Shown piece by piece: positions 39,832 through 46,790 of a stretch of DNA of 64,000 nucleotides (the first letter of the stretch is position 1; every line of letters begins with the position of its first letter). A program made the position numbers and the translations under genes. Origin of the DNA: Methanomassiliicoccales archaeon. GTDB lineage: Archaea; Thermoplasmatota; Thermoplasmata; RBG-16-68-12; SOIM01. Below the pieces are notes generated by a model, which ran no database searches, was not told the origin of the DNA, and saw only the letters and a program-made list of their open reading frames with translations. Where the stretch lies: assembly GCA_004377185.1 (NCBI GenBank), contig SOIM01000021.1, positions 1 through 64,000 of the forward strand. Direction: 5' to 3'.

Positions 39832-39896
39832 TGAAGAACAGAAATTAGATAGGAATGCATACATAACACCAGAAGGTAGTGAAAGGAAATCAACCT

Positions 39897-42452
39897 ATGC
39901 CTACTGAAAAGCATGAAGTCAAGGTCACAGGAATGACATGCGCGTCCTGCGTCCAAACAATTGAGACCAAACTGAATGAGACGCCAGGCGTAACCAGAGC
40001 TGTAGTAAACATCGCAACCGAAAAGGCAACGGTGGAATATGATCCATCAAAGACTTCGTCAGCAGCGATTGAAAAGGCCATAGAAGATGTTGGCTACGGC
40101 GTCTTGAGAGACGAGGTCACCCTCAACCTGGAAGGCATGACATGTGCTTCGTGCGCTCAGACCATAGAAAATGCGCTGAAAAAGGCTGAAGGAGTTTCCT
40201 ATGCTTCGGTAAACCTAGCAACCGAGAAGGCGTTGGTGAGGTTCGACCCTCTCAAAACAAGTCCCGCTCGGCTCATCAAAGTGGTGGAGGGCGTGGGGTA
40301 CAATGCTCACCTGCCTGCCGAAGAGGAAATGGAGGACAGGGAAAGACTGGCCAGAGAGAAGGAGATTAGGACACAAAGGAACAACCTGATCATATCCGTA
40401 ATCATCGCCCTACCAGTGACCCTGATAAGCTTTCGTACAGCGTTTGGCGGCTTCTTCGAGTCAATAGGTCTAGGGTTCATTCCCAACTACGATGACAACG
40501 ACCTGATTCTCTATGCGATATTTGTTCTTGCCACAATCACAATGATCGGACCTGGACGGCAGTTCTTCGTAGGAACCTTCAAAGGCCTGAAGCACGGGAG
40601 CACGGACATGAACCTTCTCATAGCCACAGGAACAGGGGCAGCGTACGTGGTGAGTGTGGCTGGAACCTTTCTTGATCTCGGAGCTGGGTATGAGCATGTC
40701 TACTATGACACTGCTGCCTTGCTAATAATGTTCATCATCCTCGGGAGATACCTTGAGGCGATAGCGAAGGGAAAGACTTCAGAGGCGATAAGGAATCTGA
40801 TAAGTCTCCAGGCGAAGACGGCCAGGGTAATCCGCGATGGACAGGAAATCGAAGTTCCGGTGGAGGACGTGACGGTCGGAGACATTGTTATAGTCAGGCC
40901 AGGAGAGAAGATCCCCGTCGATGGGATTGTGACAGAAGGCCATTCCTCTGTGGATGAATCCATGATATCCGGTGAGAGCATCCCGGTGGAGAAGGGAGAA
41001 GGGGACGAATGCATAGGAGCTACGCTCAACAAGAATGGATTGTTAAAGATACGGGCAACGAAGGTCGGAAAGGATACCGCCCTCGCCCAGATCGTCAAAC
41101 TGGTTGAAGAAGCGCAGACCTCAAAGCCACCAGTTCAGAGGTTGGCTGACGTAGTGGCTGGACATTTCATACTGGCGGTTCATGTTCTTGCGTTGTCCGC
41201 CTTCTTCTTCTGGTACTTCTATGGCTATACGGCTTTCAATGGGTATGGCACGCCCTTCCTTTTCGCACTTCTGATCTCCATAACAACGCTTGTGATAGCA
41301 TGTCCTTGTGCGGTAGGACTGGCAACCCCGACGGCGGTCATGGTGGGCACGGGAAAGGGCGCAGAGAATGGAATCCTGATTAAAGGCGGAGAGGCCCTTG
41401 AGAACACTCACAAGTTGAACACGGTGGTCTTCGACAAGACAGGGACCTTGACCGAAGGTAAGCCGTCGTTGACGGACATTGTTCTATTGGACCGAGAGAC
41501 AGTCGCAACACCGATGCAGGAGCTTGAGGTTTTGAAACTGGCAGCCATCGCAGAGAAGGGATCAGAGCATCCTCTTGGTGAGGCGATAGTCGAGGGTGCA
41601 AGGAAGAGGGGTATTGAAATCCCTCAGGCCGAGGATTTCAAGGCCATCCCCGGTAAGGGCGTGGAGGCGCATTTCGAGGGAAAAAGGATACTTCTCGGAA
41701 CCAGACGCTTGATGAAATCGACCAACATTCAAACCAGTGGACTGGAAAGACGATTGACCGAGCTGGAAAATGACGGCAAGACGGCGATGATAGTCGCAAT
41801 CGACGATCACGCAGTCGGAATCGTTGCCGTTGCAGATACGATAACAGAATATGCTTCCGAGGCGGTCGAACAACTGCAGGACTTGGGCATAGAAGTGGTT
41901 ATGATCACGGGGGACAACCGCAGAACGGGAGAGGCGATCGCAAGTCAACTCGGCATAGGACGCGTGCTCGCAGAGGTCCTTCCCCAAGACAAGGCCAGAG
42001 AGATCAATCGGCTGCAGGAAGAAGGTAAGAAGGTCGCCATGGTCGGTGACGGAATCAATGACGCTCCCGCCCTCACCCAGGCGGACATTGGCATCGCGAT
42101 AGGCAGTGGCACCGATGTGGCAATCGAGTCGAGCAACATAGTCCTCATCAAGAACGATGTTCGGGACGTGGTGTCGGCCATCAGGCTCAGCAAGAAGACA
42201 ATGGGCAAGATCAAGCAGAACCTCTTCTGGGCGTTCGTCTACAATTCAGTGGGCATTCCCATTGGAATGGGGATTTTCTTCCCAGCTTTCGGTTTCCTCG
42301 TGAACCCTGCGCTGGCCGCGGCATTCATGGCCATGAGTTCAGTTTCGGTGACAACGAACTCGCTCCTTCTGAAGAGATACAAAGTGCGGGCGATGAAGAA
42401 GAGAAGAAGACCGAGAAGAGTTGGTGCTCCACAACCATCTCCAGGAGGATGA
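39897..42452 (+). CDS. copA: Copper-exporting P1B-type ATPase
   Basis: An 851-residue Cu(I) pump. Two N-terminal heavy-metal domains each carry GMTCASC (first pair Cys15/Cys18). The CPC motif at 469-471 defines a Cu(I)/Ag(I) specificity. Also present are DKTGTLTEG with the phosphorylated Asp513, the HP motif in [19 protein letters not shown] and an N(x)6YN(x)4P-type MB region ([16 protein letters not shown]). Eight TM helices. ATG 39897 has AAAGGAAAT nearby; an in-frame GTG at 39879 is an alternative. It is followed after 5 nt by a small membrane protein. It removes cytoplasmic copper. Confidence 0.96.
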
Positions 42453-42457
42453 TATAA

Positions 42458-42724
42458 GTGAGCAAAGGAAGTCGAGAAGGACTGAGGAATGCGGGCATCA
42501 GTATGATCCTCTCGTTAGTGGTTGTACTGATCTTCTATTTCGCGGCAAGTCAGATAGGCGGCTATGATACGGTCGATATTCTCGGAGGGGCCGTGTATTC
42601 GTTCATACTCTCGATGATAATATCATTCTCCATCATACCCAAGCTTGTCTCCTCGCTCTCAGAAAAGAGGAAAGCGACCAGTACCCCAATGGGCGACAAC
42701 GCTACACAGAGAAAAGAAGAATGA
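42458..42724 (+). CDS. Small two-TM membrane protein linked to CopA
   Basis: An 88-residue protein with two TM helices (SMILSLVVVLIFYFAASQIGG and AVYSFILSMIISFSIIPKLV) and a basic, polar C-terminus. GTG at 42458 is 5 nt after the copA stop. No Cys or Met/His metal motif is visible, so an accessory or stability role for CopA is only inferred from position. Its 3' end overlaps the convergent ccdA-like gene by 23 nt. Confidence 0.65.
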   Translation: MSKGSREGLRNAGISMILSLVVVLIFYFAASQIGGYDTVDILGGAVYSFILSMIISFSIIPKLVSSLSEKRKATSTPMGDNATQRKEE

Positions 42725-44033
42725 CCAGGCCTATCGCGATCATCGTAAGCCCAGAGAAAAGCCTGATGCTTGTGGACTTTGACCTTTCCCACTTGGTTAT
42801 TCTTCGTGCAACGAACCTGTTAGAGGTAGTGAAGAGCACAATCAAGAGCGGAAGAATGAACATGAAATTGTAGATGAAAAGATAACCGATGCCGGCGAAG
42901 TAAGTGGTCTGCGTTGCCATGAGACCCAGGACAGCTACATATATGCCACCCGAGCACGGGAAGGTGCACAGCCCGACCAGGAGACCGGCAACAAGCGCTG
43001 AAGGGAGAGTGGCCTTGAATATCCGGGACTTCGCCCTTTCCCACAACCCCTTGGGCATCTTGAAGGACAGCGGAAGGTTCGGGAAGAAGTACTGCAGAAG
43101 ACTAAGCGATCCCAGGATGATGAGCAGATAAGAGCCGATCATCGCCAGCAAATGCGGTTGCCCGCTTATCACCACTGCCCTGAGCAATCCAACACCTATG
43201 AAGAAGTAGACCAGGAAGATGGCGAGAACGTACACCACGCCCATTCTCATCACGTTCAACCTCGTACGCCTAATCACGAACAGGAAGCTTATGAAGAAGA
43301 GTAGAACGGCGAAGGCGCAGGGATTGAGGCCGTCCAGAAAGCCTGTTGCGACCACCAAAGGCAGTAAGGATTCGTCCCCCTCTGCCGGTCCGGTCCCAAC
43401 ATTCAATGAGAACCAGAGAAGATAGCTGTCTATGGGCGTCCCGATGGGGTACTCCTGAGACTCCCCCTCAAAGGCCCAAGCAGAGTAGGATACTGGATCC
43501 TTCATTTCTTCTTGATACACCAGAATCCTATTCATTGTGAGATTGCTCGAGTTCACTAGCAAATCGTCTATCACATGGAGAGGTACGTGACCCTCAAGGA
43601 CTATCGTGGCGTTCTTGCGGACAAATGTGGCTATGTGACTTTGCAGGTGTGTGGGTATGCCCATTTCTTCGTTCAGGCCGTTGAGCTCGCCCCGATACTT
43701 CCTCTCGTTGATGTAGTCCTTCTTCACGACGTCCGGTATCCCTCCAGCCCGTAGTGCTGGTATCAGCTCGTCTTCAATGTATATGGCACACTCACCGCAG
43801 GCCTCGTTGTAGTAGATCAGTGCCTGGCCCTCATCGATCCTAACACTCTCTGGTGCCTTGGCAAGATAGTAGGGTAGAACGGACCCCGCAATCAGGACTC
43901 CCACAATTCCGATGACGATGATTATGAAAACAAGGTTCTGGAACCTCTGGTCCTCCGGTTTCTTCTCAACCTGATCTTCCGACTCATCGACCGTTACTTC
44001 TTCCGGAACGTCATGGCAGGGCTCAGAATTCAT
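42702..44033 (-). CDS. CcdA/DsbD-like thiol-disulfide transporter with fused thioredoxin-like domain
   Basis: A 443-residue membrane protein. A first TM (VFIIIVIGIVGVLIAGSVLPYYL) is followed by an extracytoplasmic thioredoxin-like domain with a CGEC pair (Cys79/Cys82). Then come six TM helices of the CcdA fold with its two redox cysteines in GLNPCAFAVLLF and GLCTFPCSGGIYV. This layout passes reducing equivalents across the membrane to external thiols. It is translationally coupled to the DUF1573 gene upstream (ATGA) and sits in the copper island, where it may keep Cys-rich metal proteins reduced (inference). Confidence 0.88.
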   Translation of the reverse strand: MNSEPCHDVPEEVTVDESEDQVEKKPEDQRFQNLVFIIIVIGIVGVLIAGSVLPYYLAKAPESVRIDEGQALIYYNEACGECAIYIEDELIPALRAGGIPDVVKKDYINERKYRGELNGLNEEMGIPTHLQSHIATFVRKNATIVLEGHVPLHVIDDLLVNSSNLTMNRILVYQEEMKDPVSYSAWAFEGESQEYPIGTPIDSYLLWFSLNVGTGPAEGDESLLPLVVATGFLDGLNPCAFAVLLFFISFLFVIRRTRLNVMRMGVVYVLAIFLVYFFIGVGLLRAVVISGQPHLLAMIGSYLLIILGSLSLLQYFFPNLPLSFKMPKGLWERAKSRIFKATLPSALVAGLLVGLCTFPCSGGIYVAVLGLMATQTTYFAGIGYLFIYNFMFILPLLIVLFTTSNRFVARRITKWERSKSTSIRLFSGLTMIAIGLVILLFSV

Positions 44034-44656
44034 GCTATCACGTTGGCTGTGATATCAACCTGGACTTCTGGATTGAAGGGGTCATTGCTCTTGATGTAGA
44101 CGACCCTCATCACGGAACCTGTATCCGGATGAAGACCGGCATCGTAGCTGACCTCCAAGGTCGCCGTCTCTCCAGGAGAGAGGACCGCGCTCCAGTCCTT
44201 CGGGTTATCGTGCAGGCCGAAAGTGGGGCTGGCAATTCCCCTGACTCTCACGACAGCAGAGGTGCATCCGCAAGATGTGGAGACTCCCGTCAGTCTCAAA
44301 TCGACTTTTCCGGCGTTCCGTATTTCGAAGGTTGTGATCACCGTTTCCCTTTGGATGTCTCCGAAGTCATGGGCGCTGGGGTAAACCTCTATTTTGGGAT
44401 GACTGAGGCCCAGATACCAGACAAAGACGAGGCCGAACAAAACAATTATTATGGAGATTATCGCCAAAGCCCGTACAACTTTCTTGGTTCCTGGGGACAT
44501 GGGTGCCTTGTGCGTCCTTCTCCTGCGAAGCCCTTTCTCCACTTCCTTGGCATAATCCTTGCCCGATTTGTCATGGGGATGGACGTTTCTCAGGTGGCGT
44601 GGCAGATTCGCAACTTTCACTTTGATTCCGCATACCGGACACTCTTCTCGCTCCAT
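44030..44656 (-). CDS. Zinc-finger/TM/DUF1573 protein
   Basis: A 208-residue protein with three parts: a cytoplasmic C2H2-like finger (Cys6, Cys9, His21, His26 in CPVCGIKVKV and RHLRNVHPHD), a TM helix (VVRALAIISIIIVLFGLVFVWYLG), and an extracytoplasmic DUF1573 Ig-like domain with the signature STSCGCTSA. DUF1573 proteins often occur with redox and metal proteins. Joining it to a cytoplasmic zinc finger in one chain is unusual. ATGA overlap with the CcdA-like gene makes them one operon. Confidence 0.78.
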   Translation of the reverse strand: MEREECPVCGIKVKVANLPRHLRNVHPHDKSGKDYAKEVEKGLRRRRTHKAPMSPGTKKVVRALAIISIIIVLFGLVFVWYLGLSHPKIEVYPSAHDFGDIQRETVITTFEIRNAGKVDLRLTGVSTSCGCTSAVVRVRGIASPTFGLHDNPKDWSAVLSPGETATLEVSYDAGLHPDTGSVMRVVYIKSNDPFNPEVQVDITANVIA

Positions 44657-44861: not shown

Positions 44862-45227
44862 TTATCCCATCATCCCGCAGCCATGGTGGTCCTCTTCTTC
44901 GTGCTCATCCCCATGCTCATACTCTTCCTCGTGCTCCTCCATCTCTTCCTCGCAGTGTTCATGGCTCCACTGATACTCTTCGCATTCCTGGTATTCGTGT
45001 TGTTCGCATTCCTCGTTGTGCTCGTGGTCGGGGTCGCAATGCATTCCTTGGTCCATGTGGTTCATACCGTTCATGCCGCAATCCCTGTTACCCATTCCGG
45101 TCATCATGTTACCATCCATCATCTGACCTTGCATCATGCCTCCGTTCATCGTGGCCACTCCAGCGACCGCGCCGGTTCCCACGAGCGAGCTCACGAGGAG
45201 AACTAACATCAATCCGTTTGCCATCAT
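44862..45227 (-). CDS. Secreted Met/His/Glu-rich metal-binding protein
   Basis: A 121-residue protein with a signal peptide (LMLVLLVSSLVGTGAVAG). Next is a Met-rich block (MNGGMMQGQMMDGNMMTGM), then Cys/His/Glu clusters (HCDPDHEHNEECEQHEY, HEHCEEEMEEHEEEYEHG, EDHHGCGMMG). Met-rich motifs typically bind Cu(I), and His/Glu clusters bind Cu(II) or other divalent ions. ATG 45227 follows GAGGTGACA. It is likely a surface copper sponge or chaperone (inference). Promoter and operator are listed separately. Start at 45254 (GTG) would lengthen the signal peptide unnaturally. Confidence 0.8.
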   Translation of the reverse strand: MMANGLMLVLLVSSLVGTGAVAGVATMNGGMMQGQMMDGNMMTGMGNRDCGMNGMNHMDQGMHCDPDHEHNEECEQHEYQECEEYQWSHEHCEEEMEEHEEEYEHGDEHEEEDHHGCGMMG

Positions 45228-45284
45228 TGTCACCTCTTTTCCCGCGCTTTCCACGCAGGTTCGTTCATACTATCGGTTGAAACG

Positions 45285-45315
45285 GTATAAATCCTTGACG
45301 TGAAACGCGTTTCAC
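45285..45315 (-). promoter_or_regulatory. Promoter plus perfect 16-bp palindromic operator of the Met/His-rich gene
   Basis: GTGAAACGCGTTTCAC (45300-45315) is a perfect palindrome. On the minus strand it is followed 6 nt later by the TATA box GATTTATACC (45285-45294), so a bound protein would touch the BRE/TFB site. It lies between the metal-binding gene and the membrane winged-helix gene. Confidence 0.7.
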
Positions 45316-45339
45316 TTTTCTGAAATCCGACAGAAATAA

Positions 45340-45915
45340 CTACAAACCGAGGTCCTCGGAGATGCGTACGCGGTTCGTTGCCCCGTATCTTTCCCGGACT
45401 ATGAGGCGCTTGCTCTCCAACTTGTCCAACAACCTAGTGACCTTGGCCTTGGAGAACGTTCCTTCAGCCACGAGGTCCTTCTGGAGAACCTCGCCCCCAG
45501 CATCCACAATCCTCCTGAACATCTTCCGTTCGTCCCCGGTGAGGAGCCTGATTGCAAGTTTGTACATGTCCTCCTTGCTGGCTTCCTGGGATCTCTCTTC
45601 GACTTGTGCACCAACAGGTGGCGTCCAAGGGGGAGGAGGAGGCGCAGCAGAGGTCTCCTGTGGTCTCCGTATGACCAGCAGAACGATTACAAGAATTAGA
45701 AGACCGATACCAACGAACATTAGGATTGACCCAAATGGAAAACCGGTGCCCCCGTTATGATGCCCCATCATCCCTCCAAACATCATTTCCTGGCCCATCA
45801 CTGCCCAAGCCAGGCCTATGATCACCAACAGAATGGTGACGAAAAGGGCGACCAGCAGTCCGGTGTCTGTTGTTCTGGATGGTCTACCAACCAAAGCTGT
45901 CACTGTCTTATCCAT
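45340..45915 (-). CDS. Membrane-bound winged-helix regulator with Met/His external loop
   Basis: A 191-residue protein: short basic N-terminus, TM1 (residues 18-40), an external loop GQEMMFGGMMGHHNGGTGF, TM2 (63-82), then RRPQ, a Pro-rich linker and a cytoplasmic winged helix (LAIRLLTGDERKMFRRIVDAGGEVLQ, broken by turns, then FSKAKVTRLLDKLESKRLIVRERYG). Arg/Lys distribution puts both ends inside. The loop's Met and His residues resemble copper ligands. I infer a one-component transmembrane copper sensor controlling the adjacent Met/His-rich gene. ATG 45915 (MDKTVTALVG) is preferred over 45942. Confidence 0.8.
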   Translation of the reverse strand: MDKTVTALVGRPSRTTDTGLLVALFVTILLVIIGLAWAVMGQEMMFGGMMGHHNGGTGFPFGSILMFVGIGLLILVIVLLVIRRPQETSAAPPPPPWTPPVGAQVEERSQEASKEDMYKLAIRLLTGDERKMFRRIVDAGGEVLQKDLVAEGTFSKAKVTRLLDKLESKRLIVRERYGATNRVRISEDLGL

Positions 45916-46163: not shown

Positions 46164-46790
46164 ATGAGAATGGACAACACCGACGCCAAGATCCTTCAGA
46201 TGCTGCAATCGGATGGTAGACTCTCATTCCGAGAAATCGCCAAGAAGACGGGGGTCAGTACGCCAACTGTTAGCGCAAGGGTGAAGACGCTCGAAGAGCA
46301 GGGCGTCATTAGGGGTTACTCAGCGGATATCGACCCACTGGCAATCAACGAGACCATTTCCGTTCTAACAGTGGAATGCAAACCCAAGGACCTTGAATCC
46401 GTTTCAGAACTCCTTTCGAAACAAGAGAACGTGAGGGAAGTAATAGTCCTCAGCGGCTCTAGGGTCGTCGCAAGGCTCACATTCGAGCATGAGGGTAGGT
46501 TGGATGTCTTTCTCAATTGGCTGGAGAAGGTCGAGCAAATAGATAGCTACAACATAGACAGGGCGGTCAGGATTGTGAAAAAGGAACCGGACGCCATCGT
46601 GAGCGAAGGAATCCAAGTCGTAATTCCCTGCTATGAATGTCGGAAACTCATCCGGGAGCAACCGGTGAGAATCAAGCTTGATGGACGGATGCACTACCTG
46701 TGTTGCGAGTCCTGTCTGAAGCTCTACAAAGAGCGCTACGAACGCATAAAGAAAGGTATATCTCCATCGAAATCAAAGGCTGGCCACTGA
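46164..46790 (+). CDS. Lrp/AsnC-family regulator with C-terminal TRASH domain (copper-responsive)
   Basis: A 208-residue regulator: an Lrp-type helix-turn-helix (TDAKILQMLQSDGRLSFREIA, then GVSTPTVSARVKTLEEQGVI), a RAM-like dimer domain (VLTVECKP...ENVREVIVLSGSRVVARL) and a C-terminal TRASH domain (PCYECRKLI...DGRMHYLCCESCLKLYKERY). In archaea this pairing is known for copper regulators of CopA operons. ATG 46164 is chosen because the TATA box is 27 nt upstream and family similarity begins there. It probably controls copA and itself through shared upstream boxes (inference). Confidence 0.88.
   Translation: MRMDNTDAKILQMLQSDGRLSFREIAKKTGVSTPTVSARVKTLEEQGVIRGYSADIDPLAINETISVLTVECKPKDLESVSELLSKQENVREVIVLSGSRVVARLTFEHEGRLDVFLNWLEKVEQIDSYNIDRAVRIVKKEPDAIVSEGIQVVIPCYECRKLIREQPVRIKLDGRMHYLCCESCLKLYKERYERIKKGISPSKSKAGH

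Follow-up and report, generated by a model that had tools for sequence, protein, structure and literature searches.

A membrane-tethered one-component regulator probably controls an adjoining gene for an exported Met/His-rich protein through a TTTCA-based operator, with repression relieved by a soft metal outside the cell, as judged from comparative sequence analysis and a structure model. Both genes lie in the 64,000-nucleotide stretch of DNA from a Thermoplasmata-type archaeon that was analyzed (the window). The regulator (TM-wH) carries two transmembrane (TM) helices, an outside loop and a cytoplasmic winged helix (wH). Its gene and that of the exported protein are co-directional and separated by a gap of 112 nt containing the palindrome GTGAAACGCGTTTCAC, in agreement with a sequence-only reading that had placed the two genes side by side and a perfect palindrome just before the TATA box of the Met/His-rich gene (Table 1). 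Comparison with relatives suggests that this palindrome belongs to a longer predicted operator bracketing the TATA box.

Table 1. Features of the regulator locus and its copper gene cluster in window coordinates.
Feature	Position	Strand	Remarks
CopA-type P1B ATPase	39879-42452	+	two HMA domains, CPC motif
DsbD_TM-like membrane protein	42702-44033	-	conserved neighbor
DUF1573 protein	44030-44656	-	N-terminal zinc-finger-like motif; conserved neighbor
Exported Met/His-rich protein, proposed target gene	44862-45227	-	121 aa, N-terminal hydrophobic export segment
TTTCA-N18-TTTCA operator element	45278-45305	-	TATA box within N18
TATA box (TTTATA) of exported-protein gene	45286-45291	-	position kept in relatives
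Perfect palindrome GTGAAACGCGTTTCAC	45300-45315	.	TGAAA-N4-TTTCA, core of predicted operator
Further upstream TTTCA half-site	45321-45325	-	
TM-wH regulator gene	45340-45915	-	191 aa; two TM helices, outside Met/His loop, C-terminal DUF7343/MarR-like winged helix; PF24034 match and AF2 model
Winged-helix domain of TM-wH, aa 127-185	45361-45537	-	Pfam and model
Outside loop of TM-wH, aa 43-60	45736-45789	-	part of Met/His-rich stretch MGQEMMFGGMMGHHNGG, which starts near the end of TM1
Lrp/AsnC-TRASH regulator (CopR-like)	46164-46790	+	matches both domains; neighbor kept in close relatives

The pair is part of a gene cluster with the order CopA-type ATPase (+), small membrane protein (42458, +), DsbD-like protein (-), DUF1573 protein (-), exported Met/His-rich protein (-), TM-wH (-) and TRASH-Lrp regulator (+). 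The sister genus retains the copA, DsbD-like, DUF1573 and TRASH-Lrp neighbors and possesses a second TM-wH/exported pair. Elsewhere, an FTR1-type permease gene directly precedes the TM-wH/Met-His pair (L048, 4057-5010) and a cupredoxin gene is located behind the pair (L026 and L051). It is this context, namely copA and TRASH-Lrp here and cupredoxin and FTR1 genes in relatives, together with covariation of loop and partner, that suggests copper as the ligand. The exported protein itself belongs to no Pfam family at the cut-off and has no NCBIfam match. A separate element, ACATTCGTAA, is found upstream of copA (39822) and of TRASH-Lrp (46095) and nowhere else in the window, and could represent a TRASH-Lrp site; as a shared copA/TRASH-Lrp promoter element it was discarded, being absent before copA in three relatives.

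The two TM helices, Met/His-rich outside loop and cytoplasmic winged helix expected from the sequence-only reading are all present in TM-wH. In the AF2 model, TM1 spans aa 15-42 and TM2 aa 61-83, with the loop between them, and the winged helix is modeled with pLDDT block means above 90. Lysine and arginine density across the family falls from 0.19 ahead of TM1 to 0.03 in the loop and is 0.11 beyond TM2; by the charge rule, the loop is therefore outside and the winged helix inside. The protein scores 38.9 bits against PF24034 (DUF7343; cut-off 27.6), and this family is matched in 48/48 aligned homologs (E <= 0.001). MarR_2 reaches 25.0 bits for the window protein (cut-off 27) and is matched in 46 of the 48 homologs at E <= 0.001 (MarR assessed with PF12802/PF01047). 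The best PDB fold matches of the model are ArsR/MarR-type and CodY winged helices, with weak E-values of about 2e-3. A PDB sequence search from the TM-wH alignment was discarded, with designed proteins alone matched and no stretch passing independently.

The palindrome sits 5' of the TATA box of the exported-protein gene. Perfect 16-bp palindromes are not rare (an estimated 40 or so in 2.6 Mb), and we consider this one real because it is conserved, not because of its perfection alone. The exact sequence was set aside as a regulon motif: it is unique in the 2.64-Mb genome, with no second copy at fewer than three mismatches, and three-mismatch matches occur at control level. Around the palindrome, a larger array could be defined that consists of TGAAA-N4-TTTCA, in many cases TTTCA-N5-TTTCA, and a TTTCA-N18-TTTCA(N)C element whose N18 holds the TATA box. 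TTTCA-N18-TTTCA by itself was likewise rejected as a motif, having nine matches in the source genome, mostly without promoter context; the composite motif has one exact match there.

Immediately downstream of the regulator gene, 54 non-redundant relatives contain 148 TTTCA sequences compared with 8.0 expected from shuffles. TTTCA pairs spaced exactly 23 bp apart are found in 30 of these 54 regions, while in 200 shuffles no distance recurred in more than one region. The composite operator follows the regulator gene in 41/51 regions and precedes it in 1/51. It lies behind homologous TM-regulator genes throughout Thermoplasmatota and also in one Altiarchaeales contig (L091), and as the palindrome in one Parvarchaeota contig (L093). 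When 300 genomes of the class were searched motif-first with TGAAA-N4-TTTCA-N18-TTTCA, 48 matches were obtained in 41 genomes; the reversed motif, used as control, gave none. Of these matches, 29 immediately follow a co-directional regulator gene, at distances between -3 and 80 nt as measured from the profile match; another six precede genes for SHOCT-like membrane proteins in genomes where the regulator is encoded at a different place (L140, L148, L149, L162, L163 and L175). The other 13 are without such context and look like chance matches. The regulator is present in 32/41 operator-containing genomes compared with 52/259 others (Fisher p = 6e-13), and these 52 genomes with a regulator and no exact operator match are as expected where half-sites are mismatched or spacing differs. 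The palindrome is thus found at orthologous positions in relatives, and the comparative evidence (41/51 regions, 30/54 with the 23-bp spacing, and the motif-first search) strongly supports the operator role proposed for it; comparison among relatives strongly supports the pairing of TM-wH with a secreted protein and its membrane one-component architecture as well. A longer query, TTTCA-N5-TTTCA-N18-TTTCA, was abandoned after several of its matches in family f11 among the 300 genomes proved to be one recurring 23S rRNA-like sequence, taken as coincidence. The same kind of sequence gives false motif matches in L096-L103, in L120 and, within the source genome, in C52 (L043, where the N18 part alone matches).

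The genes behind the operator nearly always encode small exported or membrane proteins of variable type: Met/His-rich, Gln/His-rich, Tyr/Asp-rich, Cys-rich, SHOCT two-TM or C11-peptidase-like. The Met plus His content of the outside loop, with boundaries set by a hydropathy rule, correlates with that of the partner protein (Spearman rho 0.63, n = 44). With four long-branch rows dropped rho is 0.70, and independent contrasts give r = 0.58 (p = 9e-5, uncorrected for the ten residue sets compared) on a tree that contains many weakly supported forks and was derived from the last 95 residues of every protein (winged helix plus part of the linker in some rows), excluding the outside loop. Met alone is also correlated between loop and partner; H alone, G, D/E, S/T, N/Q, Y/W, K/R and P all fall short of p < 0.05. 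Three loci (L045-L047) encode, beside the Met/His pair, a second TM-wH whose loop is of Gly/Gln type and whose partner is Gln/His-rich. This copy belongs to the same clade as the Met-loop copy, and in it loop and predicted partner have changed together. Conservation of the Met/His loop, which had been put forward as a check, therefore holds in part: the loop is kept in the closest orthologs, but paralogs swap it together with the partner. At three further loci (L080, L083 and L089), the TM-wH gene is followed by the palindrome core and then by a gene for a C11-peptidase-like (clostripain) exported protein. In many members, for example those with these C11-peptidase-like targets, neither loop nor partner shows a clear metal signature, and copper is therefore not a ligand general to the family; the wider TM-wH family clearly cannot be called a copper family, its loops and partners having diversified.

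We infer DNA binding by TM-wH, its ligand and the sign of regulation, and propose the following mechanism. The cytoplasmic winged helix, probably dimeric, would bind the TTTCA-based operator before the next gene. In the resting state this would repress transcription by blocking TBP/TFB at the promoter, repression being favored because half-sites are present on both sides of the BRE/TATA at fixed spacing. When Cu(I) or a similar extracytoplasmic soft metal binds the Met/His loop, the dimer would change and release the promoter, and the exported metal-binding protein may buffer the metal outside the cell, with cytoplasmic copper handled by the neighboring TRASH-Lrp regulator and CopA. More tentatively, and with less than even confidence, the locus may represent one instance of a phylum-wide, kinase-free module in which winged helix and operator stay constant and the outside loop, matched to the exported target, is exchangeable; beyond the membrane the loop would sample the ligand or occupancy of that target and, in this clade, read extracytoplasmic copper.

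The same regulator, operator and target could be joined by a different logic, in which TM-wH activates transcription and responds to the exported protein in its apo or holo form, or to some other signal from the envelope, instead of free copper. We regard this as rather unlikely. MarR/ArsR-like regulators more often repress and TM-wH has a fold of this usually repressing type; moreover, an invariant half-site lies between the TATA box and the expected start site, an arrangement typical of repression. However, ArnR and ArnR1, the characterized archaeal membrane regulators, are activators (PMC6396743), and the repressor reading could therefore be mistaken. Half-sites are also located upstream of the BRE, the position bound by P. 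furiosus CopR (PMC7830388). Loop-partner covariation fits direct contact equally well as a common ligand, and in paralogs non-Met loops go with non-Met partners.

Alternatively, the palindrome might be the site of the neighboring TRASH-Lrp (CopR-like) regulator, with TM-wH incidental. This neighbor is kept in the closest relatives and copper promoters are controlled by CopR-type proteins (PMC7830388), yet the idea is very improbable given that the operator is found class-wide behind TM-wH genes, including clusters with C11-peptidase-like and SHOCT targets, and that TM-wH and operator co-distribute over genomes. Within the window, the operator was not found at the copA or TRASH-Lrp promoters, and TTNNCAWWWTGNNAA, the motif published for CopR, is missing from the exported-protein, copA and TRASH-Lrp promoters alike, so that a CopR site at the operator was rejected. 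The notion that the TTTCA array is an RNA hairpin or terminator, or a general core-promoter element, has hardly any likelihood. The palindrome could fold into a stem of 6 bp capped by a CGCG tetraloop, but most conserved spacings are those of direct repeats (TTTCA-N18-TTTCA and TTTCA-N5-TTTCA), which are unable to fold as a hairpin. The motif also precedes SHOCT genes where it is unlinked to the regulator gene, and in its composite form it is rare, with the single exact match in the source genome and the 48 in 300 genomes. We retain repression by TM-wH, relieved by an extracytoplasmic soft metal, as the favored reading.

Bacterial counterparts of the exported protein, SilE and PcoE, are under two-component rather than one-component control. 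They resemble it in being small, exported, Met/His-rich and encoded in copper/silver clusters (SilE: PMC5008109), but it is not a member of their sequence family by Pfam and NCBIfam, and the likeness is compositional only. The transmembrane one-component regulator is a known kind of protein. Transmembrane transcription regulators (TTRs), which combine a DNA-binding domain and a TM region in a single polypeptide, have been catalogued and are widespread in archaea, at about four per genome (Demey et al., 2023; PMC10269533). TM-wH shares both traits, with a predicted DNA-binding domain (PF24034 and the modeled winged helix) and at least one predicted TM region (two hydrophobic helices, supported by the charge rule). 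The portion of the TTR census considered here gives neither operator nor target for the DUF7343 TM-wH family (PMC10269533); both are proposed here, along with a loop-partner rule. DUF7343, to which the winged helices of TM-wH and all 48 homologs belong, is a family without assigned function, and the open-licence papers searched contain no mention of it and nothing relevant on COG2512. None of these papers appears to describe the operator, the targets or the loop-partner pairing, and an earlier description elsewhere is possible. The whole TM-wH family gains a precise predicted operator, candidate targets and a testable sensing rule.

Among the same papers, the only archaeal membrane one-component regulators with identified targets are ArnR and ArnR1 of Sulfolobus acidocaldarius, membrane-bound HTH activators acting on archaellum/pilus targets (PMC6396743). 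Like TM-wH they are archaeal, one-component and membrane-bound, with two TM helices and inverted-repeat boxes. Their domain order is reversed, however, with an N-terminal HTH, a HAMP-like and a sensor domain and a C-terminal TM pair, whereas TM-wH has N-terminal TM helices, a short outside loop and a C-terminal winged helix; the ArnR box is TCGAC-N5-GTCGA and the TM-wH operator TTTCA-based. CopR of Pyrococcus furiosus, a TRASH-Lrp copper regulator, recognizes TTNNCAWWWTGNNAA just upstream of the BRE (PMC7830388). It is soluble and has a TRASH metal domain; in Pfam searches TM-wH matches neither the Lrp/AsnC HTH nor the TRASH domain, both of which are matched by its neighbor. The contrast with cytoplasmic CopR-type sensing drawn by the sequence-only reading accordingly stands for the membrane one-component architecture and is tempered by the CopR-like regulator encoded next to it. 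The findings as a whole also suggest that in Thermoplasmatota metal is monitored outside the membrane beside a cytoplasmic TRASH-Lrp system.
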